A stretch of 64,000 nucleotides of DNA from Anaerobacillus isosaccharinicus. Its GTDB lineage: Bacteria; Bacillota; Bacilli; Bacillales; Anaerobacillaceae. Under the pieces are notes generated by a model. The model was not told the origin of the DNA and ran no database searches. It saw only the letters and a list, made by a program, of their open reading frames with translations. Positions 3,493-49,600 of the stretch are shown here, piece by piece. The stretch is from the NCBI RefSeq assembly GCF_001866075.3, contig NZ_CP063356.1, forward strand, positions 3,586,164 through 3,650,163, read 5' to 3'. The position numbers and the translations under genes were made by a program. Within the stretch, counting starts at the first letter, position 1. The number at the start of each line of letters is the position of its first letter.

Positions 3493-3524
3493 CTTAAACT
3501 AACGAAGCAGTTTACTTCAAGAAG
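3493..3524 (+). repeat. Cassette site A1 (short form, first of array A)
   Basis: CTTAAACTAACGAAGCAG runs straight into TTTACTTCAAGAA: opening and closing arms share one GAAGCAG with no hairpin between. As first site of the array it may be the ancestral or primary site. Confidence 0.75.
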
Positions 3525-3538
3525 AAAGGCTGGGGATA

Positions 3539-4144
3539 ATGAAAAAATTACTTAATATTACGATAGTAACAATATTAGCATTCACTTTAAGTGCATGTGG
3601 GAACAACGTAAAATCAAATACAATAGTAGGTGCGGAGTTAACTGACAGAGAAAAAGGAATACTTTCAACTACATCAAACCAATCATTTGTATTTGACTTC
3701 AATATTGAAGGTGAATATAAAAAAGTATCTGTGTGGGTTGAAAAATATGAATTTGGTAAATTGGTTGATGAACAAATAGGACCTCTTACGACTGAAGTTA
3801 TGAATAATGGTTCTATTATTTTTACAATCATTGAAACAGATACCATTGAAAATCAAACTTTGTTTAATATAGGGATTATCAGTGATGGCATAGGGGGCTC
3901 GATGTCAACCTCTAATATCGTTTCAACTAAAGGTACGGAAGGTAGGTCTATCGTATGGGGCAACATTAGCGAAGAAATGGATGTTCCGAACGAGCAGATG
4001 GTTTTAGCGAGTATAGGGTATTCATGGGATGAAGGTTCAATGGTTTCATTTTCCTCTGAATTTTATAGAGATATTGAGCGTCGTAACATCGAGTTAGAGA
4101 ATCATGAGGTTGTTTATCTACTTAGAAGTAAATTTACGAAATAA
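3539..4144 (+). CDS. Putative lipoprotein, 201 aa (cassette A1)
   Basis: A type II signal peptide with lipobox LSAC (Cys at about residue 20) targets it to the outer face of the membrane. The rest is hydrophilic and beta-rich with no family I recognise. The ribosome binding site is GGGGAT just before ATG. Similar beta-rich 'LxxxC' lipoproteins recur in the array (22752, 33243, 38742). First gene after site A1. Confidence 0.85.
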   Translation: MKKLLNITIVTILAFTLSACGNNVKSNTIVGAELTDREKGILSTTSNQSFVFDFNIEGEYKKVSVWVEKYEFGKLVDEQIGPLTTEVMNNGSIIFTIIETDTIENQTLFNIGIISDGIGGSMSTSNIVSTKGTEGRSIVWGNISEEMDVPNEQMVLASIGYSWDEGSMVSFSSEFYRDIERRNIELENHEVVYLLRSKFTK

Positions 4145-4158
4145 GCAAGTATGGTTGT

Positions 4159-4173
4159 TGCACTAACGGTGAG
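4159..4173 (+). repeat. Cassette site A2, opening arm (split by intron)
   Basis: CACTAACGGTGAG is the opening arm; the group II intron follows and the site resumes at 6823. Intact sites at 39585 and 48961 also read AACGGTGAGC. Confidence 0.75.
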
Positions 4174-6822
4174 GTCCGACATGTTCTGTAATAAACGTCT
4201 TACGACGTGAAAATACAGGGAAGCCAATGCATAATGGCTTCTAACTTTATAATCGAGGATAGGAATGATGTGACCATGTACACAGAAACTATCTCGTCAA
4301 AGCTCCTGCGTGCGTCATGATTGACAGATCATCGGGGTTCGAAGGACAGGTAGAGTCGGCAGAACGAAGGCTGAAGCCATTCCTAAAAGGAAAAGGTATG
4401 CCAACGGATATGCCGGATGGCTGAAAAACTGGATATGGTGAGAATGTTTCAATAAGAAACTGACAAACAACCGAATGTACGGGTCTAAAGTTAGGACATG
4501 CGGAAACGTATGTACCATCACACGATGGGGTGAGCGGCGTAAAGTAAAAGTCTCTCCTATGAAATACGCTATATTGAACAATGGCAATATCCAACTCACA
4601 GGCTCAGAGGAAGCACCTAAGTTCAGAATGGATAGCTAGATTATAAGGAACTTGGAAAGCAAGGAACGTTGTAACTTGGACTGTCAGCCAAAACGGTTGC
4701 TATAAGGCTCAAGCCGAAAAGCATTTATCTTTGTGAGGGTAAGGGCACGACCTATGAAACTCCTGTAATGGGATCGGAGGAACAGCCCTAAGTCTAATTG
4801 TATGAATGATCATTTTCCAAACGTGTATTGCACCGATCTGGTAAGAACGTGGGAACATCACCTTGAACTAAGGGGGTGCCACAGTGCAAACTCTACGATA
4901 TTGGGATTACTATGGCATGACTGAAACCTTTACAGATTTATTTGAAAGATCAAAGAAACAAGAAATTTTCCACTCCTTATATGACACAATTACGTCCAAG
5001 GAAAATATTTTGTTGGCTTATCGCTCAATAAAATCTAATAAAGGGTCGAAGACACCAGGAACTGATGGTAAAACTATCAACGATATCAAAAAACTATCAG
5101 ATGAAGAACTAGTAACGTTAATCCAAGACAAGCTAAAAAATTATCGTCCAAAGAAAGTTAGGCGAAAATTAATTCAGAAGGATAATGGGAAATGGAGACC
5201 TCTTGGTATACCCTGTATTTTTGATCGAGTTATACAACAATGCTTCAAGCAGGTACTTGAACCCATTGCCGAAGCACAATTTTATAAACATAGCTACGGT
5301 TTCAGACCTTTACGGTCTACACACCATGCTATGGCAAGAGTACAATTCTTAGTTAATCAAGCCTCACTACACTTCGTAGTAGATATTGATATTAAAGGCT
5401 TCTTTGACAACATCAATCATACTTTACTTATAAAACAATTGTGGAACTTGGGAATAAGGGATAGAAAAGTGCTAGCATGCATTTTTAAAATGTTAAAAGC
5501 GGAAATTGACGGAGAAGGATCACCAACAAAGGGTTCTCCTCAGGGCGGACTGTTATCGCCCCTACTTTCTAACGTGGTACTCAATGATTTAGATCAATGG
5601 GTTTCTAAACAATGGGAATTTTTCCCCTTAGACAGACCTTTTAAAACAAGAGAAGGCGAACTCCTGGCTAAAAAGCGAACCAATCTGAAAGAGGGTTATC
5701 TTGTACGCTACTGTGACGATTTCAAAATACTTTGTCGAGATTGGAAGACTGCGCAAAAGTGGTATCATGCAGTAAAATCCTATCTGAAACATCGTCTTAA
5801 ACTTGATATTTCACCTGAGAAATCACAGATCATCAATCTGCGAAAAAGAAGTTCTGAATTTTTAGGGTTTACTATTCGTGCGAATAGAAAAAGGAATAAG
5901 AGAGTTGCACACACAGGTATAAAGGATAGTAAAAAGCAGAAAATCATTGCTGAAGCCAAAAAACGCATTCTAAAATTACAAGCTTCACCGACTGCACAAA
6001 ATGCCCTACTCTTTAATAGCTTCGTTCTAGGAATTCACAACTACTTCAATCGAGCAACACATGTAAACAATGAGTTCTCGCGTCTTGCCTACAAACTGCA
6101 TTACTTTATGTATAATCGTCTTAAATCTGTCGGGAAGTATGAACATCCAGCCAATCCACCACCAACCTACAAAAAGTTTTACAGATTAGGTTATAGGACA
6201 TTTAAGGTAGCTAAAGTTTATCTTTACCCAATCGCTGATGTAAGAACAAAAAACAGCATGAACTTCAGTCAAGGACTTACGCCCTTCACCGAAGAGGGAA
6301 GGAAACTCATACAAAAGAAACTTAGAGTTGACATACAACAAGAAATTTCTTTGTTAATGCAATCTAATCTCCCGACACGAAGTGTCGAATATATGGATAA
6401 CAGGATTAGTCGGTACAGCATGAAACTTGGGAAGTGCGAAATCACAGGAATTTTCCTAACCGCTACTAATGTGCACTGTCACCACTTTATCCCGTTACAT
6501 CTCGGTGGGAATGACAGTTTCAACAACCTTCGAATTCTCCACAAAGAAGTACATAAGCTAATTCATATAAAAGACATCAAGACGATTAACACACTCATAA
6601 CCATACTTGGTCTAACCAAGACAATGATAAATAAGATCAACCAATACCGTAAGGAATGTAGCATGGATCAAATCTTATAATCTCAAAAAAATAATGAGTA
6701 ACATGGAACTTATGATTTAAATACATACAATTAGATGGAACGCCGTATGCTGGGAAACTGGCTCGTACGGTGTGGAGCAGGGGAAAAGCTGGAGATCATA
6801 TCAAAGGTTTACCTATTGCTAC
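4174..6822 (+). mobile_element. Group II intron, copy 1
   Basis: A 2649-nt group II intron with its maturase ORF. A GAAA-capped domain V-like hairpin lies at about 6738-6775 and domain VI ends in CCTATTGCTAC, placing a candidate branch A seven bases from the 3' end. Boundaries are deduced from uninterrupted sites reading AACGGTGAG-CTTTAGTG. CTCAC at about 4593 could be the EBS1 pairing with the exon GTGAG. An alternative 5' end, GTGAG at 4169, would match the usual GUGYG start but would leave an atypical site. Copy 2 lies 41,350 bp away in the same orientation. Confidence 0.85.
4884..6680 (+). CDS. ltrA: Group II intron reverse transcriptase/maturase with HNH endonuclease, 598 aa
   Basis: Multifunctional intron-encoded protein for splicing and retrohoming. 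The reverse transcriptase domain spans about residues 60-340, with SPQGGLLSPLLSN and the catalytic YCDD box at 276-279 (YADD in most relatives). A maturase/X region follows (about 370-480), then a C-terminal HNH endonuclease with CEITG at 518 and HCHHFIPLHLGG near 531. GTG start with AAGGGGGTG in front. Full length and apparently active. HNH-bearing proteins are usual for introns that cut the second DNA strand themselves. Identical in sequence to the copy at 46234. Confidence 0.95.
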   Translation: MQTLRYWDYYGMTETFTDLFERSKKQEIFHSLYDTITSKENILLAYRSIKSNKGSKTPGTDGKTINDIKKLSDEELVTLIQDKLKNYRPKKVRRKLIQKDNGKWRPLGIPCIFDRVIQQCFKQVLEPIAEAQFYKHSYGFRPLRSTHHAMARVQFLVNQASLHFVVDIDIKGFFDNINHTLLIKQLWNLGIRDRKVLACIFKMLKAEIDGEGSPTKGSPQGGLLSPLLSNVVLNDLDQWVSKQWEFFPLDRPFKTREGELLAKKRTNLKEGYLVRYCDDFKILCRDWKTAQKWYHAVKSYLKHRLKLDISPEKSQIINLRKRSSEFLGFTIRANRKRNKRVAHTGIKDSKKQKIIAEAKKRILKLQASPTAQNALLFNSFVLGIHNYFNRATHVNNEFSRLAYKLHYFMYNRLKSVGKYEHPANPPPTYKKFYRLGYRTFKVAKVYLYPIADVRTKNSMNFSQGLTPFTEEGRKLIQKKLRVDIQQEISLLMQSNLPTRSVEYMDNRISRYSMKLGKCEITGIFLTATNVHCHHFIPLHLGGNDSFNNLRILHKEVHKLIHIKDIKTINTLITILGLTKTMINKINQYRKECSMDQIL

Positions 6823-6868
6823 CTTTACTGGAACAGCAGTAAAGTTTTTGTTGAAGTATTGAAGAAGG
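6823..6868 (+). repeat. Cassette site A2, closing part (split by intron)
   Basis: CTTTACTGGAACAGCAGTAAAG forms the usual inner hairpin; TTGAAGTATTGAAGAAGG stands in for the closing arm. Joined to 4159-4173 it restores a normal site. Confidence 0.7.
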
Positions 6869-6894
6869 ATTGAAAACAGTAGGAGGAAGTTAAG

Positions 6895-7350
6895 TTGAGG
6901 GAAGCAAATAAATTAAGTATATATATTGTGTGTTTAATCATCTCATTTTTTTCTTGTTATGCTCTGTATAAACTTTACGAAACATCACTTATTCTACTAG
7001 AAAAGTATCCTGAAATTGACAATGTTGCAATAGTAGGTTTTGCTATGGTTTTTGCTCCTGTAATGTTATTTATATTTAATGTCGTATTCTACTTATTTGT
7101 ATACGAGAAAAGCATTAAAAAATCTCCTAAGCAAATATCTTCTTGGAGAATATTACTTCTAAATAAGGACCGTTGGAGTTTAAATCTTATTAGAGTCTTG
7201 TTGTATTTACTATGTTTTTGGATAATAGCGGATAATTTTGGTGCGGTTCCAATTTGGATTGTTATTACATTATTAATTAATATCGTTTCATACGGATATT
7301 GGACACTGCAAATGGTCAGAGAAAGTTTATTATTCGAACGTACCTATTAA
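6895..7350 (+). CDS. Four-helix integral membrane protein, 151 aa (cassette A2)
   Basis: Hydrophobic segments at about 7-27, 43-67, 95-112 and 116-136 predict four membrane helices, with a positively charged middle loop (KSIKKSPKQ). TTG start behind AGTAGGAGG. Family not recognised. It follows the intron-split site A2, so before the intron inserted it was an ordinary cassette. Confidence 0.8.
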   Translation: MREANKLSIYIVCLIISFFSCYALYKLYETSLILLEKYPEIDNVAIVGFAMVFAPVMLFIFNVVFYLFVYEKSIKKSPKQISSWRILLLNKDRWSLNLIRVLLYLLCFWIIADNFGAVPIWIVITLLINIVSYGYWTLQMVRESLLFERTY

Positions 7351-7397
7351 AGCAGGGATTTTTTATTAACATCTTCAAAGAGTTTGTAAATTTATAT

Positions 7398-7445
7398 ACT
7401 TAAACAAACGAAGAGCTATAGTGAGAAGTAAGGCAAACTCTATAA
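7398..7445 (+). repeat. Cassette site A3
   Basis: Opening arm TTAAACAAACGAAGAGC followed by TATAGTGAGAAG; the closing arm is degenerate. Confidence 0.6.
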
Positions 7446-7482
7446 TTACACATTGTTTCAATATTAGTGAATGGAGTTTAAA

Positions 7483-7842
7483 ATGAAAAAAAATAAAAGT
7501 TTACTTATTATAATTTTTATTATATTTATGTTAGCGATTATTAATAGTTATTCCAACCCGCAAATTTATATTGGATTTTTCCAAGTTAATGAAAAAGAAA
7601 TAAATAATAATGAATATAGAATTGTCTTAAGCGCAGAACCCGTGGGTGATTTTAACCTAATTTTTAGAGAAAATCATAGTTTTTTATACAGAGAAACTGA
7701 AAGAAAAAGTAAGGAAGTTCATATAGGTGAAATTTGGGACGAACTCGTAGTTGGTAAGAACTATTATGTTAGATTTGAAAATTATTATTACCCGTGGCGG
7801 ATAATTCAAAAAACGAAACTTACATCTTTGGATAATTTTTGA
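7483..7842 (+). CDS. Membrane-anchored small protein, 119 aa (cassette A3)
   Basis: An N-terminal hydrophobic helix (residues 7-24) without a clear signal peptidase site suggests a membrane anchor and an extracellular domain of about 95 residues rich in Tyr, Phe and Asn. GGAG six bases upstream supports the ATG at 7483 (MKKNKSLLI) rather than the one at 7471. No family recognised. Confidence 0.75.
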   Translation: MKKNKSLLIIIFIIFMLAIINSYSNPQIYIGFFQVNEKEINNNEYRIVLSAEPVGDFNLIFRENHSFLYRETERKSKEVHIGEIWDELVVGKNYYVRFENYYYPWRIIQKTKLTSLDNF

Positions 7843-7892
7843 TGCTTCCTCTTGTGAGTAGAGGTATGGTTTCAATCAACTTGTGATATATA

Positions 7893-7972
7893 CACTTAAA
7901 GTAACGAAGTGCGAATGTTGAACAAGGGTATTCGCCTTTCTTTGTTGAAGTAAAGAAGCAGGATAATTCAAT
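7893..7972 (+). repeat. Cassette site A4
   Basis: Opening arm CTTAAAGTAACGAAGTGC; inner pairing GCGAAT/ATTCGC and GAACAAGG/CTTTGTT; closing arm GAAGCAGGATAATTCAA. Same subtype as A51, A54 and A55. Confidence 0.85.
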
Positions 7973-7990
7973 AAAATAGGAGGTGTGGTT

Positions 7991-8338
7991 ATGAATAGAT
8001 TAACTTTACTAATGCTATCATTCTCTTTATCAACATTTTTAATTAGTGGCTGCTCTTCTAATACCTATCAAGAATTAATGCCAGGTAGTAAAGGAGAGTT
8101 TTCTGTTTTATGGATAACGGAAAAAACGGGTGGTTACAATGCTTTTCCATCTGTTTTCAATAAAGTGGATAAAGTTACAATGCCTAAAAGTTTAGAAGAG
8201 ATTAATAAAAAATACCCCAAATTAGAACTTAAAAGAGCACCTGTAATCGTGATTTTTAATGAAAATGGTGTAGTTTTAACGACTTATAACTTAGATGAAG
8301 CGGTGGAATTCTTAGAAAATGAATACGGTGATAGTTAA
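7991..8338 (+). CDS. Putative lipoprotein, 115 aa (cassette A4)
   Basis: Lipobox ISGC (Cys near residue 23) after a standard signal peptide. The short mature part ends in a thioredoxin-like tail (PVIVIFNENGVVLTTYNLDE), resembling the last strands of a thioredoxin fold, but no CXXC is present. AGGAGGTG precedes ATG at 7991. The stop codon falls directly before the short site A5. Confidence 0.8.
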   Translation: MNRLTLLMLSFSLSTFLISGCSSNTYQELMPGSKGEFSVLWITEKTGGYNAFPSVFNKVDKVTMPKSLEEINKKYPKLELKRAPVIVIFNENGVVLTTYNLDEAVEFLENEYGDS

Positions 8339-8352
8339 AGTAACGGGGGTGA
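8336..8352 (+). repeat. Cassette site A5 (short form)
   Basis: AAAGTAACGGGGGTG then the next cassette (GAATATAG). Compare 34051, where the same cassette follows CAACTAATGAATGC. Confidence 0.65.
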
Positions 8353-8398
8353 ATATAGAATAAGGAAATGCATGGTCAGTGTGAGGGGGGACAGTAAA

Positions 8399-8815
8399 AT
8401 GACTAATACAGATTTAAGAGTAGCTTTGTTGTTAGGTGTCTTATATTCTATTGCTATATCGAGTGCAATATATTTTGTAGGTAATTTAATGTTTGCTGAA
8501 TGGATTTCGTATATTTTCTTTCTCGTTATTTCTACTGTCCCTTCTATTGCTGTGTTTACTTATTTAAGTAAAATAAATACCAAAAGAGATAATATTGGAT
8601 TGGTGTTACATAGCCTTTGGATAGGTTTTACTGTTTCGTTTATATCGATGCTTGCATCTACAATTTTACATGATACATTCAAAGAAAGAATTTACTGGGA
8701 CATATCATCTTTAGAGGGGTTCATTTGGTTTTTATCATTTGCAATTATTGGTTCCCTTCTTTTCACCCCAATTAGTTATATGTTTGTTAGAGTAAAAAAT
8801 AGGTTAACAGCGTAG
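8399..8815 (+). CDS. Four-helix membrane protein, 138 aa (cassette A5; near-identical copy at 34113)
   Basis: Four predicted membrane helices (about 9-30, 35-56, 68-90, 108-130) with a short polar C-tail. GAGGGGGG eight bases upstream fixes ATG at 8399 (MTNTDLRVAL). The same cassette recurs at 34113-34529 with only a few substitutions (for example YLSKIN versus FLNKIN), and a degraded tail of a third relative lies at 35813. Family not recognised. Confidence 0.85.
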   Translation: MTNTDLRVALLLGVLYSIAISSAIYFVGNLMFAEWISYIFFLVISTVPSIAVFTYLSKINTKRDNIGLVLHSLWIGFTVSFISMLASTILHDTFKERIYWDISSLEGFIWFLSFAIIGSLLFTPISYMFVRVKNRLTA

Positions 8816-8825
8816 GAGTCGTTAT

Positions 8826-8848
8826 TGCATTAACGAAGAGCAATACTT
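8826..8848 (+). repeat. Cassette site A6 (short form)
   Basis: CATTAACGAAGAGC joins directly to AATACTTCAAGAACGG. In the second copy of the upstream cassette (34541) the same arm continues into a complete hairpin site. Confidence 0.8.
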
Positions 8849-8872
8849 CAAGAACGGAGGTGTTTATGTTTT

Positions 8873-9229
8873 ATGACTACTTTAATACTTATTTTAATCC
8901 TAATAATTAGTATTGCAGATAATCTACTACGAAAACGGCTTGTGACAGGTATGTTTAAATCACTACAAGAAACAGATGCAGAAAAAGTATACCTAGGACT
9001 AAGGGTAATATTTACTGTCGTATTTATACCGCTTATCGTGTTTGTCTATAAGACTTATGATTACAGTGTAATCAAATGGGTTTATGTAGTTGCAATGATA
9101 ACATTTCTTTCCTCTCAATCCTTAATTGAACGGAAGTATCTAGAAGGAAAAAAGCATATTGCCACTATTTCCTTGATGGCTATTGGTATCATTGCAATTT
9201 TAAGTATTTTTGGCATAAACGGTTATTAA
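8873..9229 (+). CDS. DUF4181 family membrane protein, 118 aa (cassette A6; copy at 32709)
   Basis: The 'LRKRLVTGMFKSLQETDAEK' block followed by three membrane helices matches my knowledge of DUF4181 proteins, common in Bacillaceae and without assigned function. Helices lie at about 3-17, 42-60, 67-84 and 97-115. GGAGGTG precedes the start. Its twin at 32709 differs by a few residues, and the shared DNA begins at AATACTTCAAG and runs through the following site, defining this cassette's limits. Confidence 0.85.
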   Translation: MTTLILILILIISIADNLLRKRLVTGMFKSLQETDAEKVYLGLRVIFTVVFIPLIVFVYKTYDYSVIKWVYVVAMITFLSSQSLIERKYLEGKKHIATISLMAIGIIAILSIFGINGY

Positions 9230-9234
9230 TCCTA

Positions 9235-9302
9235 TCTAATTAAACTATCGAGTGCGATAGTGGAACAGAGTTGACGCTTGTTCAACCATTGAGCAGGTTT
9301 GC
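9235..9302 (+). repeat. Cassette site A7
   Basis: Opening arm AATTAAACTATCGAGTGC (ATCG instead of AACG); closing arm GAGCAGGTTTGC. Diverged twin of A34. Confidence 0.8.
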
Positions 9303-9338
9303 ATAAAAGTACGGTAAATAAGAGAGGAGGAGAATTGT

Positions 9339-9539
9339 ATGTTAATTGGTTTGTTGCAAGGTATAGGTATATTCTATTATTGGACTTGGTTTGTCTGGCC
9401 TTTTGTTTTTATTCTTTCATTGGTTTATGCAATTTCATCTTTAGTAAAAGACGATACAGCATCGATAAAACCAGCCATTGTTGCTTCGATATCACTTTTA
9501 ATTATTCTGGCTGGTATCACTGCTCCTAATTTTAATTGA
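9339..9539 (+). CDS. Small membrane protein, 66 aa (cassette A7)
   Basis: Two membrane helices (about 5-33 and 46-62) joined by a short acidic/basic linker (VKDDTASIK). AGAGAGGAGG precedes ATG. Unknown function; typical of the many two-helix mini-proteins in this array. Confidence 0.8.
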   Translation: MLIGLLQGIGIFYYWTWFVWPFVFILSLVYAISSLVKDDTASIKPAIVASISLLIILAGITAPNFN

Positions 9540-9566
9540 TTATTTGTATGAGGAAGATTAGAGCAT

Positions 9567-9613
9567 AACATAAAACATTTATTTAGACTTCATTTCTATT
9601 TTATGTTTTAAAG
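9567..9613. terminator. Terminator-like hairpin
   Basis: AACATAAAA and TTTTATGTT pair around an AT-rich loop between the A7 gene and site A8. Confidence 0.5.
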
Positions 9614-9628
9614 TATGTGAAGGGATGT

Positions 9629-9716
9629 ACTTAAATTAACGAGAGCAATAGTTGAAAAGCAGAAACAGTCATAAGAGTGGTTGTTTCTGTTTTTTTATTC
9701 AATTCTTGAACAGGAT
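9629..9716 (+). repeat. Cassette site A8
   Basis: Opening arm CTTAAATTAACGAGAGC; inner hairpin CAGAAAC/GTTTCTG with a T-run that could terminate transcription; closing arm GAACAGGATAGCG. Confidence 0.8.
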
Positions 9717-9784
9717 AGCGAAAAGTGAATATTTGTTAATTTACAGGTTAAGGTAATACCTAAAAACAGTTAGGGTGATGTAAA

Positions 9785-10354
9785 TTGACGAAGAATATTT
9801 TTCTTGTAATGCTTATTTTTAATACCTTTATTTGTGGAGTAAACAATGAAACAGCTTCTGCAAAAACAATCAGTGAGACTCGACCTTTTGAAGAAATATA
9901 TCCTGAAATTGGTTATAAAACGGTTGAGGAAGCTGTTAAAGAATTTGAAAATCATTTCAAAAAAGACTTAAAACTACCGCTTAGACTCCCGCCTTTAAAC
10001 TTTACACACCATTTTGGAAGGTTTACAGACACAGAAGGTGACATAAACGATTCTCTTGAATTAGAGTTTATCAATGATAAGTCACCAGAAAATCATTATT
10101 TTATCTTTGTTCGACCTATTGAGCATAAAATTCCAATTAAAGAAAAGCGGATTGTTAAACTACTCAAACTTAAAAACGGGAATGAAGCGAAGTTTATTAA
10201 CGTTTCAGACTCTTTCGAAGCCCTCGTTTTCGAAAGAGATGATTGGCAATATATGTTTAATATTCCTAAGAAGATTTCAAAAAAGGTCACTCCTGAAATG
10301 TTAGTTGAAATAGCTGATTCAATTGATTATCCAAGAAAAAGAAAAATCCATTAG
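9785..10354 (+). CDS. Secreted protein, 189 aa (cassette A8; paralogue of 48389)
   Basis: An N-terminal signal peptide (about 25 residues, cleavage near TASAK) precedes a soluble domain. It shares a layout with the protein at 48389: a 'TVEEAVKEFENHF' type helix, a 'LKLPLRLPPLNFTHHFGRF' block and a C-terminal helix ending 'EIADSI'. TTG start with AGGGTGAT upstream. Family not named by me; the second copy shows the fold is maintained by selection. Confidence 0.8.
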   Translation: MTKNIFLVMLIFNTFICGVNNETASAKTISETRPFEEIYPEIGYKTVEEAVKEFENHFKKDLKLPLRLPPLNFTHHFGRFTDTEGDINDSLELEFINDKSPENHYFIFVRPIEHKIPIKEKRIVKLLKLKNGNEAKFINVSDSFEALVFERDDWQYMFNIPKKISKKVTPEMLVEIADSIDYPRKRKIH

Positions 10355-10396
10355 AGTAAAAGGTATTGTTTATCTATCAACGAGTGCTGTTTTCTT

Positions 10397-10475
10397 ATTA
10401 AAATAACGGGTGGCTTTTAGTTCAGTAAACTGTCGCTGCTTTTGTCTGTTTAACAAACCGAATTAACAAAATTTT
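10397..10475 (+). repeat. Cassette site A9
   Basis: Opening arm AAATAACGGGTGGC; inner AGTAAACTGTCGCTGC; closing arm AACCGAATTAAC, in which the usual GCAG has mutated. Confidence 0.65.
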
Positions 10476-10554
10476 TTCTTTGGTTGCTGTATAGGACAGG
10501 TGTGCAAAAGGAAATTTGCGTAGTAAAGATATTTTATTTGGAGGGAAATTGTTA

Positions 10555-10893
10555 GTGAATAATTTAGACCCAGGCTATGTTTGGTCTTTTATGTCTATGC
10601 TAGTACTTATTTTTTCAATGCCAGTAGTAGTTGTTGTTTTTTATTATCTGCGAAACCGATTTAAGAAAGATTATTACTGGGTTGTTATTTCTTTACTCAT
10701 TATCTTAATTATGTTCATTATATCTTTAGGTATCTCTTCCTGGTTTTCTATGGAGTATCACTTGAGTACAAGTGAAAAATTAATTAAAACTTTAATTGAA
10801 ATATGGACGGAAATTCTAAGGTTTATAATTTTTGGTTTAATTATGGCAGGAGTATATGTTTTTTCTAGGAAGAAAGAAAATAAAGAGCCATGA
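10555..10893 (+). CDS. Three-helix membrane protein, 112 aa (cassette A9)
   Basis: Helices at about 9-31, 42-64 and 88-105 with a basic C-tail (SRKKENKEP). GGAGGG lies nine bases before GTG at 10555 (MNNLDPGYVW); an earlier in-frame TTG at 10516 has no ribosome binding site. Unknown function. Confidence 0.75.
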   Translation: MNNLDPGYVWSFMSMLVLIFSMPVVVVVFYYLRNRFKKDYYWVVISLLIILIMFIISLGISSWFSMEYHLSTSEKLIKTLIEIWTEILRFIIFGLIMAGVYVFSRKKENKEP

Positions 10894-10915
10894 TTATTTT
10901 ACAAATGTGAAAAGG

Positions 10916-42028: not shown

Positions 42029-42044
42029 TTTTACTAACACTTTC

Positions 42045-42120: not shown

Positions 42121-42162
42121 AAACCTTTTTAGTTATTAGGAAACTAAAATGAGGTGATAGTT

Positions 42163-42549
42163 ATGAAAAAATTTTCAGTTATGTTTATGATTGGGTTGCT
42201 TTTTGTGTTCCCCAATCTAACAGTAAATGCAAAAACAATCAATGAATCTGATACGGAATTATGCGAAACGCTAAAATATGCACTTATAGGTAGCCTAAGA
42301 GAACCAGTAGATAAAGCAATTGTTGAAATCTACAAAGACGACAAAAATGCACCAGAAGGTCTTACTTGGGCAACATATGACACAGAAATTCTTAAAATAA
42401 AGCAGGTGTACGGGGTTGGCGGATTATATGAGTTAACGCTAAAAATATATCCTTATTATCAAGCACATATGAGTTATGGGGAAGATGAGGTAGTGATAAA
42501 TACAATGGGTGAATTAATAAGTTTTACGCACTTGAAGACATATCCTTAA
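42163..42549 (+). CDS. Secreted DUF3888-like protein, 128 aa (cassette A51)
   Basis: Signal peptide ending VNAK (near residue 24). The domain 'ETLKYALIGSLREPVDKAIV', a middle 'VYGVGGLYELTLKIYPYYQA' and the C-terminal 'VVINTMGELISFTHLKTYP' recall DUF3888 proteins of sporeformers. GAGGTGAT before ATG at 42163. Moderate confidence in the family. Confidence 0.75.
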   Translation: MKKFSVMFMIGLLFVFPNLTVNAKTINESDTELCETLKYALIGSLREPVDKAIVEIYKDDKNAPEGLTWATYDTEILKIKQVYGVGGLYELTLKIYPYYQAHMSYGEDEVVINTMGELISFTHLKTYP

Positions 42550-42550
42550 A

Positions 42551-42595
42551 CTTAACTAACAGAAGCAAACGTTCAACAATTATCCGATTTGCTAA
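42551..42595 (+). repeat. Cassette site A52 (short form)
   Basis: CTTAACTAACAGAAGC; no hairpin or GCAG. Confidence 0.6.
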
Positions 42596-42610
42596 GGAGT
42601 AAGATAATAG

Positions 42611-43552
42611 ATGCTTCAAATGAATATTGTAAAAAAGTTAAAAACATCATATGAGATAAAATTATCATTTGATAGGAAATTGTTATGTCACACTATGGGC
42701 AGCAAAACAATCGTGTACAATACAAAATCATGGGAAAAGGCAGCCGAACTTCAAAAGCCAAAACATCCTGGGTTCGTAACTTTTACGAGTGATAGTAAAT
42801 ATATTTACATTAAAAGTACAAATGGTACTATTTGTGTTTATGACACTGATACCTTTCAGTTAGTCAATAGTATTCAACCTAATAAATCATTACATATAAT
42901 CGAAGGGAAATTTGCAGTAACACAAAAACCTTTCCAAATAATTGATGCTATTAGGACTAAAGAGGGAAACCAGCTTGTTGAAATGGATATTGATAAAGGC
43001 GAATACAGGATAATAACTGATTTGGAAGACTTAATTACGATGTTCAACTATCATCAGTATATTTCTGCTGAAAAAAAACATTTATTTACTGTAAGTTATG
43101 TAAATAAAGAAACTGATTTACGAGAACACAAGTTAATGAAGTTTAATGAGTATAATAAGGAAGTTACTTTAATCAAGCATCCTACCTTTTGGTATTGGGA
43201 TGCTGTAATTTATGACCCTATCCATGAAGTATTCATTATGGTTCATAATGATTTTGACATCATTATTTTAGACTCAACATTCAACAGAGTTATAAAAAAG
43301 AAGACTTTACTTCCAGAATATAATGAAAAAAAAGAAGCGGGACATTACAAACATATTCACCAGTCATCTGATGGGAAAAATATTTTAATCACTTATAGTG
43401 AGATGGTTTTTATATTACGTTACGAAGATTTAGAAACCTTAGTAATTCACCCTCTTCAAAATGCAAGTTTTGCTGAGTTTAGCAATGATAATCATTATAT
43501 CCTTGTTGGTACTTGGAATAATGGTTTCGTCCTAGAAAATAATTTAGAGTAA
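42611..43552 (+). CDS. WD40-like beta-propeller protein, 313 aa (cassette A52)
   Basis: The largest cassette protein. Repeats of four-strand type can be seen: 'KLSFDRKLLCHTMGSKTIVY', 'FTSDSKYIYIKSTNGTICVY', 'HQSSDGKNILITYSEMVFIL' and 'FSNDNHYILVGTWNNGFVL'. No signal peptide, so probably cytosolic. ATG with AAGGAG upstream. Possibly a protein-interaction scaffold; partner unknown. Confidence 0.75.
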   Translation: MLQMNIVKKLKTSYEIKLSFDRKLLCHTMGSKTIVYNTKSWEKAAELQKPKHPGFVTFTSDSKYIYIKSTNGTICVYDTDTFQLVNSIQPNKSLHIIEGKFAVTQKPFQIIDAIRTKEGNQLVEMDIDKGEYRIITDLEDLITMFNYHQYISAEKKHLFTVSYVNKETDLREHKLMKFNEYNKEVTLIKHPTFWYWDAVIYDPIHEVFIMVHNDFDIIILDSTFNRVIKKKTLLPEYNEKKEAGHYKHIHQSSDGKNILITYSEMVFILRYEDLETLVIHPLQNASFAEFSNDNHYILVGTWNNGFVLENNLE

Positions 43553-43597
43553 ATTAATTGCAATAATTCTGTTGACCATTTTGGAGAGTTTTCTTAT

Positions 43598-43675
43598 TGT
43601 AGTAACGGATGCTTATCTTCAATAAGGAAAATAAGCCTTGTTCCGTTAACGTGGAAGTTTAGTAAAATGGGTGTC
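43598..43675 (+). repeat. Cassette site A53
   Basis: GTAGTAACGGATGC; inner CTTCAATAAGG / CCTTGTTCCG; closing arm GGAAGTTTAGTAAAA. Confidence 0.75.
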
Positions 43676-43720
43676 AAGGTTTTAATTATTGAAGATTGAT
43701 GCTTGTTCGTCACAATAGTG

Positions 43721-44125
43721 TTACCATCGTGGGTGATATTCAATTTTAATTTCATCTGCTTCTTCATTGTTAAACAAATAATCTGTGATAATATAATCTT
43801 CAGTCGTGCGAGGAAGAAGAGCGTACCTTACCGAATTTTTTGTATCTACAAGGACAAGCAAAAAATTCAAATCGTCCGATGCCAAAGATGGACCACGAAA
43901 CTTCCTACCAAGTTTCTCTTCTATCATTTCATTAGTTGTGTAAGGTCCGAACGTATGCATTTCCTTCCACTCCCCGTATTCAGAAAGTGATAGGGAATCT
44001 TCTTTCGATGCAACAGCCTCCTTTATAGTTTTCTCCAATTGGGGATGTTGCTTTGCTAAGCCTATATACCAAAATATGCTTGCAGTTAATATCAGCATGA
44101 CAAAAGTCAACCATACGTATTTCAT
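43721..44125 (-). CDS. Membrane-anchored protein, 134 aa (cassette A53, reversed)
   Basis: N-terminal membrane helix (VWLTFVMLILTASIFWYIGL) and an extracellular domain with 'SEYGEWKEMHTFGPYTTNEM' and 'NSVRYALLPRTTEDY'. AAGGAG before ATG on the minus strand. One of the few reversed cassettes. Confidence 0.8.
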   Translation of the reverse strand: MKYVWLTFVMLILTASIFWYIGLAKQHPQLEKTIKEAVASKEDSLSLSEYGEWKEMHTFGPYTTNEMIEEKLGRKFRGPSLASDDLNFLLVLVDTKNSVRYALLPRTTEDYIITDYLFNNEEADEIKIEYHPRW

Positions 44126-44192
44126 ATCGATACTCCTTTTGTATCTTTAATAATTTCAATGTTCATTTTACCATAGAATAGATGCAAACTAT

Positions 44193-44275
44193 TACACTAA
44201 CGAGAGCGAATTTTGAACAAGGGTATTCGCCTTTCTTTGTTGAAGTAAAGAAGCAAAGAGTTGAATAAAATTTCT
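44193..44275 (+). repeat. Cassette site A54
   Basis: CACTAACGAGAGC; GCGAAT/ATTCGC; closing arm GAAGCAAAGAGTTG. Confidence 0.8.
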
Positions 44276-44320
44276 AAAATCGAATGCTTTAGGCAACTTT
44301 ATTATTTGGAGGGATAAAGG

Positions 44321-44743
44321 TTGAATTATCTATTAAAGTGCATTATGTGGATTTTTTTCCTACTTAGTTCAGCGTGGCTTTTCGAAACATCCTGGGGATG
44401 GGAAAATACCGCATTTTGGCCTACAACACCATTTTTACATTTTTTATCAATTGTAACGCCAATATCGATACTAATTTTGTTTGGGGTTCTTCTTGGTGGA
44501 GGGCATTTGATTAAAGAGTTAAAAGCAGATGGAAGATGGAAAATTAACTTTAAAATGATGATTACGCTTGGCATCTTACCACTTGGAATAGTTCTACTCC
44601 TATTAACTTTTTATGTAAAAGGTTTAGTGGATTTAGGTAGATTTAATCATATCTATTTACGGAACTTTGCTTTGATTTTATGTGGTTACTATATTTCCCA
44701 TAGCATACATAAAGTAAAAAAAAAATTATCGCTATTGAACTAA
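44321..44743 (+). CDS. Four-helix membrane protein, 140 aa (cassette A54)
   Basis: Helices at about 5-22, 37-60, 80-102 and 112-130. TTG start behind GGAGGG. The stop codon TAA is part of the opening arm of site A55. Unknown. Confidence 0.8.
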   Translation: MNYLLKCIMWIFFLLSSAWLFETSWGWENTAFWPTTPFLHFLSIVTPISILILFGVLLGGGHLIKELKADGRWKINFKMMITLGILPLGIVLLLLTFYVKGLVDLGRFNHIYLRNFALILCGYYISHSIHKVKKKLSLLN

Positions 44744-44815
44744 CGAATAGCGAATGCTTAACAAGGGTATTCGCCTTTTCTTTTTGAAGTAAAGAGCAGG
44801 AATGTTGAACAAGGA
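44738..44815 (+). repeat. Cassette site A55
   Basis: GAACTAACGAATAGC; GCGAAT/ATTCGC; closing arm GAGCAGGAATG. Confidence 0.85.
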
Positions 44816-44839
44816 AATTTATAGATTGGGGGCGAAAGA

Positions 44840-45109
44840 ATGAAAAGGACAGTAATTGGCGGTTTTATAATGTTAGGAGGATTATTTACTACATTAACTA
44901 TAATTGTGGTGGCAGCAACATATATTCCCAGCATGACTAGATGGTCTGGTTCACAGTTGTGGTATGCAATTTTTGGGGGAAAGCAATATGGGAATGATAC
45001 TGTTCAAAGTTTATTCCTAGGTTTCCCATTTGTTGTAGGATTGTTGTTGTCGATTTTGGGGCTAGTAATACTAGTAATGGAGTATTTTGACAAGTCCTTT
45101 TTAAAGTAA
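44840..45109 (+). CDS. Two-helix membrane protein, 89 aa (cassette A55)
   Basis: Helices at about 6-28 and 60-80 with an extracytoplasmic Trp/Tyr-rich loop (MTRWSGSQLWYAIFGG). GGGGGCG before ATG. Unknown. Confidence 0.8.
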   Translation: MKRTVIGGFIMLGGLFTTLTIIVVAATYIPSMTRWSGSQLWYAIFGGKQYGNDTVQSLFLGFPFVVGLLLSILGLVILVMEYFDKSFLK

Positions 45110-45111
45110 GT

Positions 45112-45195
45112 TTTTTACTAACGGATGCATTACTTCAAGTAGGTGTAATGCTTTCTTTTGCTGAATTAAAACACAGTTTAAGGAAGAAGAGAGTT
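45112..45195 (+). repeat. Cassette site A56
   Basis: ACTAACGGATGC; inner GCATTAC / GTAATGC; closing arm ACACAGTTTAAGG. Confidence 0.8.
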
Positions 45196-45258
45196 AGGAC
45201 TTTTAAAGAAATAATTAATTCATGTTAATGAAAAATGTAAGCAAGGAGGTGTTAAATT

Positions 45259-45459
45259 ATGAAAAAGTTGATTAAGGGTTTTTTGGTAGTTATCTTTTTC
45301 CTTTTATATATTTTAATTTTTGAAAGAACTATACATTATACTATTGGTGGGTTTGGGTCTTCTGGCATGGCGTTGATTGGTACCGCAATTATGATTGTTA
45401 TAGCAGTAGTTTTATCAATATTAACCACTGACAAAGTTGTTGAAGTTTTAAAAAATTAA
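45259..45459 (+). CDS. Two-helix membrane protein, 66 aa (cassette A56)
   Basis: Helices at about 5-24 and 33-54 with a short C-tail (TTDKVVEVLKN). AAGGAGGTG before ATG. Unknown. Confidence 0.8.
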   Translation: MKKLIKGFLVVIFFLLYILIFERTIHYTIGGFGSSGMALIGTAIMIVIAVVLSILTTDKVVEVLKN

Positions 45460-45507
45460 TAATAGTCTATTCCAGCACAAGTAAACTAACATAATAAATT
45501 AGAAGTG

Positions 45508-45523
45508 TTGAACTAACGGTGAG
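45508..45523 (+). repeat. Cassette site A57, opening arm (split by intron)
   Basis: TTGAACTAACGGTGAG, then the second group II intron. Confidence 0.75.
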
Positions 45524-48172
45524 GTCCGACATGTTCTGTAATAAACGTCTTACGACGTGAAAATACAGGGAAGCCAATGCATAATGGCTTCTAACTTTAT
45601 AATCGAGGATAGGAATGATGTGACCATGTACACAGAAACTATCTCGTCAAAGCTCCTGCGTGCGTCATGATTGACAGATCATCGGGGTTCGAAGGACAGG
45701 TAGAGTCGGCAGAACGAAGGCTGAAGCCATTCCTAAAAGGAAAAGGTATGCCAACGGATATGCCGGATGGCTGAAAAACTGGATATGGTGAGAATGTTTC
45801 AATAAGAAACTGACAAACAACCGAATGTACGGGTCTAAAGTTAGGACATGCGGAAACGTATGTACCATCACACGATGGGGTGAGCGGCGTAAAGTAAAAG
45901 TCTCTCCTATGAAATACGCTATATTGAACAATGGCAATATCCAACTCACAGGCTCAGAGGAAGCACCTAAGTTCAGAATGGATAGCTAGATTATAAGGAA
46001 CTTGGAAAGCAAGGAACGTTGTAACTTGGACTGTCAGCCAAAACGGTTGCTATAAGGCTCAAGCCGAAAAGCATTTATCTTTGTGAGGGTAAGGGCACGA
46101 CCTATGAAACTCCTGTAATGGGATCGGAGGAACAGCCCTAAGTCTAATTGTATGAATGATCATTTTCCAAACGTGTATTGCACCGATCTGGTAAGAACGT
46201 GGGAACATCACCTTGAACTAAGGGGGTGCCACAGTGCAAACTCTACGATATTGGGATTACTATGGCATGACTGAAACCTTTACAGATTTATTTGAAAGAT
46301 CAAAGAAACAAGAAATTTTCCACTCCTTATATGACACAATTACGTCCAAGGAAAATATTTTGTTGGCTTATCGCTCAATAAAATCTAATAAAGGGTCGAA
46401 GACACCAGGAACTGATGGTAAAACTATCAACGATATCAAAAAACTATCAGATGAAGAACTAGTAACGTTAATCCAAGACAAGCTAAAAAATTATCGTCCA
46501 AAGAAAGTTAGGCGAAAATTAATTCAGAAGGATAATGGGAAATGGAGACCTCTTGGTATACCCTGTATTTTTGATCGAGTTATACAACAATGCTTCAAGC
46601 AGGTACTTGAACCCATTGCCGAAGCACAATTTTATAAACATAGCTACGGTTTCAGACCTTTACGGTCTACACACCATGCTATGGCAAGAGTACAATTCTT
46701 AGTTAATCAAGCCTCACTACACTTCGTAGTAGATATTGATATTAAAGGCTTCTTTGACAACATCAATCATACTTTACTTATAAAACAATTGTGGAACTTG
46801 GGAATAAGGGATAGAAAAGTGCTAGCATGCATTTTTAAAATGTTAAAAGCGGAAATTGACGGAGAAGGATCACCAACAAAGGGTTCTCCTCAGGGCGGAC
46901 TGTTATCGCCCCTACTTTCTAACGTGGTACTCAATGATTTAGATCAATGGGTTTCTAAACAATGGGAATTTTTCCCCTTAGACAGACCTTTTAAAACAAG
47001 AGAAGGCGAACTCCTGGCTAAAAAGCGAACCAATCTGAAAGAGGGTTATCTTGTACGCTACTGTGACGATTTCAAAATACTTTGTCGAGATTGGAAGACT
47101 GCGCAAAAGTGGTATCATGCAGTAAAATCCTATCTGAAACATCGTCTTAAACTTGATATTTCACCTGAGAAATCACAGATCATCAATCTGCGAAAAAGAA
47201 GTTCTGAATTTTTAGGGTTTACTATTCGTGCGAATAGAAAAAGGAATAAGAGAGTTGCACACACAGGTATAAAGGATAGTAAAAAGCAGAAAATCATTGC
47301 TGAAGCCAAAAAACGCATTCTAAAATTACAAGCTTCACCGACTGCACAAAATGCCCTACTCTTTAATAGCTTCGTTCTAGGAATTCACAACTACTTCAAT
47401 CGAGCAACACATGTAAACAATGAGTTCTCGCGTCTTGCCTACAAACTGCATTACTTTATGTATAATCGTCTTAAATCTGTCGGGAAGTATGAACATCCAG
47501 CCAATCCACCACCAACCTACAAAAAGTTTTACAGATTAGGTTATAGGACATTTAAGGTAGCTAAAGTTTATCTTTACCCAATCGCTGATGTAAGAACAAA
47601 AAACAGCATGAACTTCAGTCAAGGACTTACGCCCTTCACCGAAGAGGGAAGGAAACTCATACAAAAGAAACTTAGAGTTGACATACAACAAGAAATTTCT
47701 TTGTTAATGCAATCTAATCTCCCGACACGAAGTGTCGAATATATGGATAACAGGATTAGTCGGTACAGCATGAAACTTGGGAAGTGCGAAATCACAGGAA
47801 TTTTCCTAACCGCTACTAATGTGCACTGTCACCACTTTATCCCGTTACATCTCGGTGGGAATGACAGTTTCAACAACCTTCGAATTCTCCACAAAGAAGT
47901 ACATAAGCTAATTCATATAAAAGACATCAAGACGATTAACACACTCATAACCATACTTGGTCTAACCAAGACAATGATAAATAAGATCAACCAATACCGT
48001 AAGGAATGTAGCATGGATCAAATCTTATAATCTCAAAAAAATAATGAGTAACATGGAACTTATGATTTAAATACATACAATTAGATGGAACGCCGTATGC
48101 TGGGAAACTGGCTCGTACGGTGTGGAGCAGGGGAAAAGCTGGAGATCATATCAAAGGTTTACCTATTGCTAC
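45524..48172 (+). mobile_element. Group II intron, copy 2
   Basis: Same 2649-nt intron as at 4174: identical encoded protein and no difference in the flanking RNA that I could see by eye. It sits at the same point of a cassette site (GGTGAG / CTTTAGTG). The 3' exon here is a long-form site, while copy 1's is an ordinary one, so both insertions recognise the site rather than the cassette. Confidence 0.88.
46234..48030 (+). CDS. ltrA: Group II intron reverse transcriptase/maturase with HNH, 598 aa
   Basis: Identical in protein sequence to 4884-6680: reverse transcriptase with YCDD at 276-279, maturase region and C-terminal HNH (HCHHFIPLHLGG). Both copies are full length, so either could serve both introns. 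The identity implies a recent move or gene conversion. Confidence 0.95.
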   Translation: MQTLRYWDYYGMTETFTDLFERSKKQEIFHSLYDTITSKENILLAYRSIKSNKGSKTPGTDGKTINDIKKLSDEELVTLIQDKLKNYRPKKVRRKLIQKDNGKWRPLGIPCIFDRVIQQCFKQVLEPIAEAQFYKHSYGFRPLRSTHHAMARVQFLVNQASLHFVVDIDIKGFFDNINHTLLIKQLWNLGIRDRKVLACIFKMLKAEIDGEGSPTKGSPQGGLLSPLLSNVVLNDLDQWVSKQWEFFPLDRPFKTREGELLAKKRTNLKEGYLVRYCDDFKILCRDWKTAQKWYHAVKSYLKHRLKLDISPEKSQIINLRKRSSEFLGFTIRANRKRNKRVAHTGIKDSKKQKIIAEAKKRILKLQASPTAQNALLFNSFVLGIHNYFNRATHVNNEFSRLAYKLHYFMYNRLKSVGKYEHPANPPPTYKKFYRLGYRTFKVAKVYLYPIADVRTKNSMNFSQGLTPFTEEGRKLIQKKLRVDIQQEISLLMQSNLPTRSVEYMDNRISRYSMKLGKCEITGIFLTATNVHCHHFIPLHLGGNDSFNNLRILHKEVHKLIHIKDIKTINTLITILGLTKTMINKINQYRKECSMDQIL

Positions 48173-48312
48173 CTTTAGTGAAAAATTTGGCAGTAGAGGA
48201 CCTGGATACTTATTAAGCCTGGTCCTTTTATTTTTCTTTTAAAATTGTCTTTTTGTAATTGGTAGATAGTGTTAAAATTTACTTATTCAAGTAAAGAAGC
48301 AGGTTAGTACAA
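48173..48312 (+). repeat. Cassette site A57, closing part (long form, split by intron)
   Basis: CTTTAGTGAAAAATTTGGCAG; GGACCTGG and CCTGGTCC hairpin; TGTTAAAAT; closing arm GAAGCAGGTTAGTAC. Confidence 0.85.
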
Positions 48313-48388
48313 TACTGTTCATTCTCCATCAGGATATATTTGATTTAATTACACATATTAAAACCAAATGTCTAAATGGAGGGATTTT

Positions 48389-48919
48389 ATGAAGCATTAT
48401 AAGGTTATTTTTTTGGTGACTATGTTTATTTTAAGTTTCACTATGTTGATTAGTGCCAATGAATCACAAGGAAAAACTCATGAAGAAAAACAGATTGAAG
48501 AATTTATAAAGGGGAATGACTATATTCCTGCTAAAAAAGCAATTGCACAATTTCAAAAAATGTATGGTGAAAAGGTAAACCTTCCAAGAAAGTTGCCTTT
48601 TGAGCCAACCCATCGGTTCGGAAATATTGATAAAGATGGTAGGTTAAAACTACATTTTCTAAGACCAGGTAAAATTGATGAATACCCTACACTTGATTTC
48701 GTTTTTTATGTAATGCCTCAAAAAGACTTAGATATGATTGTTCATTCAAATGATAAAGTTTATAACCTGAAAAATGAAGAAAAGGCTTTTTACAGAAAGC
48801 ATCATAATGATTTTCACTCTTTGGCTTTTGTTCAAAATAAGTTAGGGTATTATTTTGGTGCGAATCCTGACAAAATTGATTTAGATTCTTTCACAGAAAT
48901 TGCTGAGTCCATAAAATAG
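48389..48919 (+). CDS. Secreted protein, 176 aa (cassette A57; paralogue of 9785)
   Basis: Signal peptide (about 25 residues), then a domain parallel to the protein at 9785: 'PAKKAIAQFQKMYGEKVNLP', 'RKLPFEPTHRFGNIDKDG' and a C-terminal 'FTEIAESIK'. The shared blocks show one family carried by two distant cassettes. GGAGGG before ATG at 48389. Family name unknown to me. Confidence 0.82.
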   Translation: MKHYKVIFLVTMFILSFTMLISANESQGKTHEEKQIEEFIKGNDYIPAKKAIAQFQKMYGEKVNLPRKLPFEPTHRFGNIDKDGRLKLHFLRPGKIDEYPTLDFVFYVMPQKDLDMIVHSNDKVYNLKNEEKAFYRKHHNDFHSLAFVQNKLGYYFGANPDKIDLDSFTEIAESIK

Positions 48920-48955
48920 AAAAGAAAAATAATTCAGGACAACAGCTTCATTATC

Positions 48956-49042
48956 TTCAACAAACGGTGAGCAATAGTTGAACAAGGAGTTGTCGATGCG
49001 ACAGAAGCTCTTTGCTGAAGAGGTTAGTCCAATAATAAGAAG
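48956..49042 (+). repeat. Cassette site A58
   Basis: CAACAAACGGTGAGC; inner GGAGTTGTCG / CGACAGAAGCTC; closing arm GAAGAGGTTAGTCC. Confidence 0.8.
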
Positions 49043-49050
49043 GTGAGAAG

Positions 49051-49320
49051 ATGGACCAGATAAAGATTAAAGTTAATAACAAGAGTTTATATATTAACAA
49101 TAGCAATAACATAGTCGGGGAAATATGCATTGAAAAGAACGGATATATCTTCTTTCCTGATGAAAAATGGACTGACTTTGTGGTTGTAATACTGTCTTGG
49201 TGGAACAAAAAACTTCGATATTTTAAGTATTTAAAAATTGAAGAGAGATTAGATTTTGATTTTATGGATGGTCCGCTCAAAAACATTGATTTGGTGTATC
49301 TTTTATCTTTGTTTACATGA
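49051..49320 (+). CDS. Hypothetical small protein, 89 aa (cassette A58)
   Basis: Soluble beta-rich start (MDQIKIKVNNKSLYINNSNN) and a 'KWTDFVVVILSWWNKKLRYF' segment typical of short immunity-like proteins. GAAGGTGAG before ATG. The end of the gene touches the first of three related short repeats, so the native C-terminus may have been altered. Confidence 0.75.
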   Translation: MDQIKIKVNNKSLYINNSNNIVGEICIEKNGYIFFPDEKWTDFVVVILSWWNKKLRYFKYLKIEERLDFDFMDGPLKNIDLVYLLSLFT

Positions 49321-49550
49321 AACCGTAGATAAGCGTTTAAGGGCTTGACTTGGAGCCTCTGTGGGCATGATTTGTCTTGAAAGGCTGAAGCCGTTGTTTC
49401 ATCAGGCATGCCAGCCTATCATACCCACCCCTCCAAGTAAAGTCCTATCTTTGTTAACGTTGAAAACTATAATTACTAACTAAATATAATTAGTAAATAA
49501 AGTTGGGGACTAGGCTGTTTTTGTATCTTTATTTACGTTGAATACGGTCC
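49302..49550. repeat. Three related blocks around a structured element
   Basis: TATCTTTGTTTACATGAA (about 49304), TATCTTTGTTAACGTTGAAA (about 49447) and TATCTTTATTTACGTTGAAT (about 49530) are clear relatives, suggesting repeated insertion or duplication at one target. Confidence 0.55.
49340..49440. other. Structured, GC-richer element of about 100 bp
   Basis: Nested inverted repeats (ACTTGGAG/CTCCAAGT and GTGGGCATGAT/ATCATACCCAC) enclose an AAGGCTGAAGCC hairpin. No coding frame. Looks like a small non-autonomous element or structured RNA. Confidence 0.5.
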
Positions 49551-49567
49551 AAAACCATAGTACATAT

Positions 49568-49600
49568 AAGAGTAGCTTTAGTTGAAGAAGCGATTGAAAA
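49568..49600 (+). repeat. Cassette site A59 (degenerate)
   Basis: AAGAGTAGCTTTAGTTGAAGAAGCG retains the middle and closing parts without TAACG. Confidence 0.45.

Follow-up and report, generated by a model that had tools for sequence, protein, structure and literature searches.

Mobile arrays of small gene cassettes are best known from integrons, in which the integrase gene stands at one end of the array and the attC hairpin belongs to the cassette and travels with its gene, with one crossover per site. The core boxes of attC follow the consensus RYYYAAC (R'') and GTTRRRY (R'), and group IIC introns insert in attC sites. Here we analyse a 64,000-nucleotide stretch of Anaerobacillus isosaccharinicus DNA (the window; bases 3586164-3650163 of the complete, one-contig 5.23-Mb source genome, labelled G000), in which an array of integron size had been predicted from the sequence alone, together with a 279-aa tyrosine recombinase family that lies in such arrays and is here named IntG.

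Excerpts of two papers name the I2 domain as specific to the integron integrase IntI (PMC9668308, PMC4792948), and a survey of tyrosine recombinases, as excerpted, gives the integron subgroup an insertion in the catalytic domain that is not fully conserved yet essential, and counts short proteins of the type considered here among the simple, Xer-related enzymes (PMC8138268). For the Firmicutes, the IntegronFinder 2.0 authors report, in the part of their paper cited here, one complete integron (Limnochorda pilosa) and a few clusters of attC sites lacking an integron integrase (CALIN) (PMC9024848). The second system of interest is that of the dif/pdif modules of Acinetobacter, gene modules between Xer-type cores of about 28 bp with a 6-bp spacer; according to excerpts of PMC13141974, site orientation alternates, spacers match and must be identical or nearly identical for recombination, and the chromosomal XerC and XerD act on the sites. 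Our comparison makes it likely that the window is part of a separate cassette system with Bacillales-wide sites, in which IntG would recombine cores of about 30 bp and gene modules and linkers would move separately. No earlier description of this system was found in the literature, and the suggestion of an undescribed cassette system made in the original prediction is probably right.

Results

An integron-size array in a Gram-positive genome

When the window was read through, the same diverged palindromic element, TTAAACTAACGRNKGC ... GAAGCAGNWTANTTNAANAA, was found behind successive genes on the + strand, in agreement with the original prediction. A covariance model, R1, was built from 26 hand-picked window sites (80 positions, 23 pairs, short calibration, rough E-values). 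R1 matched the + strand 53 times below 49.7 kb, which became 52 places after merging, and the whole window 70 times at E<=1, where about one match is expected from the model's own rough E-values. R1 is blind to two intron-split cores and to some simple ones, so the predicted number of about 58 units is close; 57 small open reading frames (ORFs) were chosen by hand. As had also been foreseen, nearly all of these ORFs share one direction (54 on the + strand, three on the - strand), and the layout is that of integrons and CALIN, in which small single-gene cassettes form long arrays of one direction and every cassette has a site behind it. An array does occupy the interval proposed for it (3493..49600), with two corrections to its limits: the start lies at 3491, ahead of the first gene, and further sites occur on the - strand and past the end of the window, as far as about 3.687 Mb in the genome.

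3491..49037, + strand: cassette array with 52 R1 site places, spaced by 462 bp in the median, and 57 ORFs chosen by hand
3475..3525, + strand: attI-like simple core at the array start (CTTTGTGAA..AAA.CACTTAAACTAACG-AAGCAG-TTTACTTCAAG), R1 match at 3491-3525
50968..57297, - strand: reversed part of the array with seven non-mirror R1 matches, including inverted copies of 24543-24909 and 11022-11272

Upstream of the array-start core no integrase gene is present within the window. Sequences resembling this core lie between the IntG gene and the array at two other loci, L031 and L072, the L072 copy being split by an insertion. The source genome holds 93 R1 matches at E<=1 in total, with other sites clustered near 0.56, 0.90, 1.9 and 2.22-2.28 Mb and scattered ones near 2.29, 2.39, 4.26, 4.33, 4.58 and 4.61 Mb. 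Among the 57 window ORFs, 16 Pfam families were detected at E<=1e-3, all but one in a single ORF; they include DUF6366, YrvL, PadR, VanZ and DUF3888 and are mostly of uncharacterised function, and no PADLOC defence family was found in these ORFs at the same threshold.

Sites and IntG across the Bacillales

The search of Bacillales genomes with a covariance model, which the original prediction had proposed, was carried out with R1. Positive genomes amounted to 7 of 7 in the genus, 125 of 299 in the order (53 of 113 genera) and 3 of 299 in a draw from the phylum, two of these three belonging to the same order; the genome under study is included, and the order and phylum counts are lower bounds because 15 candidates were scored per genome and strict filters were applied.

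A scan of species genomes yielded 453 IntG relatives, of which the best 78 distinct loci were kept; R1 was never trained on them. R1 sites were present in 72 of the 78 loci, and 377 of 384 sites, after eight mirror images had been dropped, were antisense to IntG, at 0.31 per kb upstream and 0.30 per kb downstream of the gene. A strict simple core was located 55-145 bp upstream of the IntG start in 44 of 77 loci, compared with none in 50 shuffled sets, and 39 of these 44 cores stood at 66-79 bp. The locus thereby resembles an integron in having a tyrosine recombinase gene antisense beside a simple, attI-type core, and is unlike one in that 38 of 56 loci have the recombinase flanked by sites on either side. 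As a control, R1 was run on 105.6 kb surrounding 30 recombinase matches in G000, where it gave no match at E<=0.05.

Sites were found in 42 of the 58 genomes with IntG versus 83 of the 241 without it. Both of the Bacillales plasmids examined, out of 22 plasmids with a recombinase match, carry IntG and sites; on the 266-kb plasmid of Sporosarcina psychrophila (L187) the sites lie on both sides of IntG, and the 27 other genes annotated in this stretch, which include replication genes and merA/merR, all run opposite to it.

IntG, a candidate recombinase of Xer-like type

No match to TIGR02249, the IntI model, exceeded its cut-off in the window or in the whole source genome, which holds 50 PF00589 matches. 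The claim that IntI is missing therefore stands; what it left out is a candidate of another type, since IntG genes lie at other places of this genome and also in relatives. One G000 copy (551582-554253, - strand) is broken by an insertion and lies divergently upstream of an array that opens with an attI-like core. The ORF of the second (917414-918250; L005 1186-2022) is intact, with a catalytic Arg replaced by Leu (HQLLHS, as against HQLRHS in 23 of 26 aligned members). A relative of the same genus (G005) has an intact IntG (326962-327798, - strand), identical to the recombinase of Anaerobacillus sp. CMMVII, followed by a + strand array, with an insertion inside the attI-like core; IntG fragments also adjoin arrays in two further genomes (two in G006, one in G001). 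The insertion element at this G005 locus (L072 12940-14705) is one that we take to be IS110-like, and the same locus carries a transfer-messenger RNA gene at L072 6479-6808.

In a database search, 6194 of 7999 scored candidates reached E<=1e-20, more distant Xer relatives included, and the nearest members among the best 120 matches were Bacillaceae-type recombinases. IntG matches XerA, XerH and XerC/D in its size and domain build, in its conserved residues and in the solved folds nearest to it. However, in hidden Markov model scores the intact G005 protein remains far under both equivalog cut-offs (XerC 217, cut-off 335; XerD 216, cut-off 330), and unlike simple Xer recombinases IntG is often multi-copy and tied to cassette arrays. 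The same protein reaches 96 bits with TIGR02249, for which the cut-off is 265. Between positions 179 and 234 of that profile, a stretch that in our reading holds the I2 domain, the copy at 917456-918208 has only 14 residues. As judged from these alignments, IntG appears to be Xer-like and to be without the defining domain of the integron integrase.

Full sites consist of two direct cores around a linker

The 26 window sites align as TTNAANTAACGGATGC - NATAGTTGAACAAG - loop - CTTGTTGAACTATTG - AAGCAG - NWTANTTNAANAA, and 392 matches from other genera give a cleaner consensus, TTAAACTAACG-GGTGC-NTTAGTTCAAGAAG ... CTTATTGAACTAACG-GGGCAG-GTTAGTTGAAGAAG. A full site contains two copies, in direct order, of one core of about 30 bp with the consensus TTNAACTAAC - 6-7 bp G-rich spacer - GTTAGTTNAA; these left-hand (LH) and right-hand (RH) cores, each with arms AACTAAC / GTTAGTT around its spacer, flank a linker with a median length of 50 bp from crossover to crossover. 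The single attC-like palindrome of the original prediction exists, but is better read as this pair of direct cores; the inner arms are inverse copies facing each other, and the site resembles a hairpin by that alone. That the site ends are imperfect inverse copies holds by sequence (66% of cells paired, versus 29-43% when slid), while the arms showed no covariation across the 26 sites of the window. Linker-free simple cores account for 47 of 653 R1 matches (those of at most 55 bases; weak matches and mirror images are counted in the 653).

The sites had been described as non-standard, with an inconsistent GTTRRRY core, and this was borne out: GTTRRRY was exact in 2 of 606 full sites and RYYYAAC in 4 of 371, the other 235 of the 606 having been set aside for lack of AACG before the LH crossover. 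About one third of the linkers (190 of 606) fit a strict terminator definition, a hairpin with a T tract, versus 10-20 in ten shuffles. The possibility, raised beforehand as damaging to the prediction, that the sites are ordinary terminators thus applies to these linkers and not to the recombination-type cores that flank them.

7893..7976, + strand: full site composed of an LH core, a linker and an RH core, 69.7 bits, E 4.2e-14, the top R1 score genome-wide
33073..33146, + strand: full site, 65.4 bits
44732..44814, + strand: full site with a terminator-like linker hairpin (GCGAATGC..GTATTCGC CTTTTC) at 44750-44774, 66.9 bits
8822..8856, + strand: simple core without linker inside the array, found by R1; behind the second copy (34065-34558) of the preceding gene module stands a full site instead
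37721..37849, + strand: repeated hairpin linker with an LH and an RH core at its ends; it recurs at 39602-39736 and 48174-48302, and related linkers lie at 41450-41594 and in L040 and L073
4174..6822, + strand: group II intron in an LH-core spacer (exons CTAACGGTGAG / CTTTACTGG), Rfam RF02004 and RF00029, borders by eye
45524..48172, + strand: second copy of this intron, placed identically within another core (CTAACGGTGAG / CTTTAGTG), Rfam, borders by eye
L031 13220-15868: third occurrence of this group II intron, likewise in a core spacer (ACAAACGGAATG / CGTTAGTAAAG), borders by eye

One linker of 125-150 bp, with a strong hairpin, is found at several places. By position, the introns recall the group IIC introns of attC in lying within cassette sites and differ from them in occupying the LH-core spacer.

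Shared segments often break at cores

Among 725 shared segments of at least 200 bp (2676 usable ends, transposon segments left in), 179 ends fell within 5 bp of a core crossover, versus 21 expected; such breaks are frequent when genera are compared, and also when arrays within one genome are. The 71 segments running from core to core comprise 32 of RH-to-LH type (gene alone), 20 LH-to-LH (linker plus gene), seven LH-to-RH (linker alone) and three RH-to-RH (the classical unit), and 54 of them end at LH. This distribution suggests that the usual moving unit is RH-to-LH or LH-to-LH and that linkers move alone too. Gene modules and terminator-like linkers would then appear to be exchanged separately, unlike the integron hairpin, which accompanies its gene. 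At the single-base level, identity ends after TAACG in some pairs and at the far edge of the spacer in others; both end points lie within the overlap region or on its border.

8351..8844, + strand: gene module, 98.8% identical to its second copy, both neighbours different
34065..34558, + strand: second copy of this module
8828..9297, + strand: gene module, 93.4% identical to its second copy, borders at cores
32664..33132, + strand: second copy of this module

Further modules are common to different G000 arrays, where they have other neighbours (for example window 40064-40758 and L040 4779-5474, 94.8%; window 30500-31079 and L040 191-769, 97.6%), or to two genomes (window 44237-44752 and L078 of G005, 98.1%). 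A 1010-bp unit holding IntG, with a core on each side and unrelated neighbours, is present in Neobacillus bataviensis and Bacillus sp. EB600, and the IntG gene itself seems to behave as a reverse-oriented module.

Neighbouring features of the window

Near-identical copies of a two-gene insertion element, presumably IS21-like, lie in opposite orientation at 12028-14357 (- strand) and 53061-55390 (+ strand). The segment 52279-52645 is an inverted copy of 24543-24909, and 52685-52935 is an inverted copy of 11022-11272; an inversion between the two element copies could explain the - strand array parts near 53061-55390. A selenocysteine tRNA gene (1555-1651, - strand; ARAGORN, Rfam) is located in the left part of the window, and an Rfam match to the EGFOA small RNA (50312-50419, + strand) just right of the array. 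From 62950 to 64000 and onward runs the first part of a three-recombinase cluster, which we assume to be Tn554-like; two such families recur four and six times in the genome.

Discussion

The system works like an integron. We do not file it as one because tests of three features (the domain specific to IntI, the core boxes and the border of the cassette) each gave a result unlike that of integrons; nor is it a dif-module system, because almost all sites share one orientation (377 of 384 relative to IntG) and spacers are unequal. A dedicated recombinase gene inside the array is a further difference from dif/pdif modules. The original prediction is supported in part: its cassette array, non-standard sites and missing IntI stand, while its account of site structure and recombinase was incomplete.

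All evidence presented here is comparative, and the role of the enzyme, the form of its substrate and the direction of insertion are inferred from it. In the model that we consider likely, IntG would be the enzyme cutting and rejoining at the cores, with the simple double-stranded core as its probable substrate, and the attC-like palindrome would arise incidentally wherever two cores with palindromic arms face each other. New modules would enter at the core adjoining IntG, linkers would halt read-through between genes, a gene could arrive with or without its own stop signal, and IntG would be able to travel as a module. Since no IntG is present at the start of the window array and the two genome copies are broken or carry Leu for the catalytic Arg, the source genome may have lost its shuffling activity.

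Several observations weigh against this model. The intact G005 IntG barely passes the XerA-type model NF040815 (220.4, cut-off 220), whose name includes 'integron integrase', as the host XerD likewise does. Over 90% of segment ends lie away from any known core, the 71 core-to-core segments are partly non-independent and had their end types read from whichever copy had the site, the LH break points could partly come from faster divergence of linkers, and spacers differ at many borders. Six of the 78 IntG loci are without an R1 site (L086, L104, L155, L156, L160 and L161), although a fuzzy pattern still places an attI-like core near IntG in L086 and L104, and the 1.5 kb around either G000 IntG copy, where insertions intervene, hold no R1 site. 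At E<=1e-5, 16 of the 58 IntG genomes have no site, so that part of the family would have another role or diverged sites; these genomes include homologues about 64-67% identical whose leader is without a core (L171-L174, L176 and L177), perhaps domesticated relatives with another task. The 83 IntG-free genomes with sites would require loss of IntG or another recombinase. Finally, the best 150 sites from other genera display weak covariation (127 two-sided changes versus 106 +- 7, reached in 4 of 500 shuffles), a small excess that relatedness can give; it may leave room for a folded single-strand substrate, and taken together the covariation results are proof neither for nor against folding.

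The strongest alternative is a true but diverged integron in which IntG or a lost IntI recombines a folded bottom strand as in attC, the window being a CALIN-type array. Several features are shared with integrons: palindromic two-part sites built, as in the classical layout, from two simple sites with inverse ends (GC..GC pairing in 95.3% of cells, columns 22-23 with 183-184), single-gene cassettes in one direction, an antisense integrase with an attI-like core, and introns within cores; the weak covariation and the non-identical spacers, tolerable for single-strand exchange, point the same way. We nevertheless regard a diverged integron as unlikely, given the absence of a TIGR02249 match over cut-off in the genome, the 14 residues between profile positions 179 and 234 in the IntG copy at 0.92 Mb, the near-absence of exact GTTRRRY and RYYYAAC boxes, the rarity with which the hairpin moves with its gene (RH-to-RH, three of 71), the use of hairpin-free simple cores as borders and the lack of covariation among the window sites.

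That the host XerC and XerD, both present in the source genome, act on the cores as in a chromosomal relative of the Acinetobacter modules, with IntG as a passenger, is very improbable. The cores are of general Xer build, with two arms and a 6-7 bp spacer, and the 83 genomes with sites and no IntG would be accommodated; yet both arms are copies of one half-site, almost all cores share one orientation, spacers differ, and IntG often stands at a fixed distance from a core. A B. subtilis dif pattern was absent from the genome at up to three mismatches, an observation that tests little. Dispersed terminators or repeats resembling bacterial interspersed mosaic elements (BIME), belonging to unrelated genes, are the least probable explanation of all, since the terminator-like linkers that favour it lie between arms conserved across genera, the sites are antisense to one recombinase family, segments end at cores above chance and linker-free simple cores exist.

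The chances seem to us evenly balanced that the Bacillales hold a second invention of the integron, in which an Xer-like recombinase without I2 moves genes, terminators and its own gene between double-stranded cores of about 30 bp, possibly representing an Xer-like state ancestral to integrons. In Firmicutes, integrons are regarded as extremely rare, according to an excerpt of PMC9024848. The sites described here, present in about four in ten genomes sampled from the order (125 of 299) and on two plasmids, would mark an integron-like platform unflagged by the IntI model, and would give access to a large reservoir of small genes that are uncharacterised. The idea, found in the excerpted text of PMC4792948, that an Xer-like ancestor gained an I2-like domain on the way to integrons would become testable in a living system.

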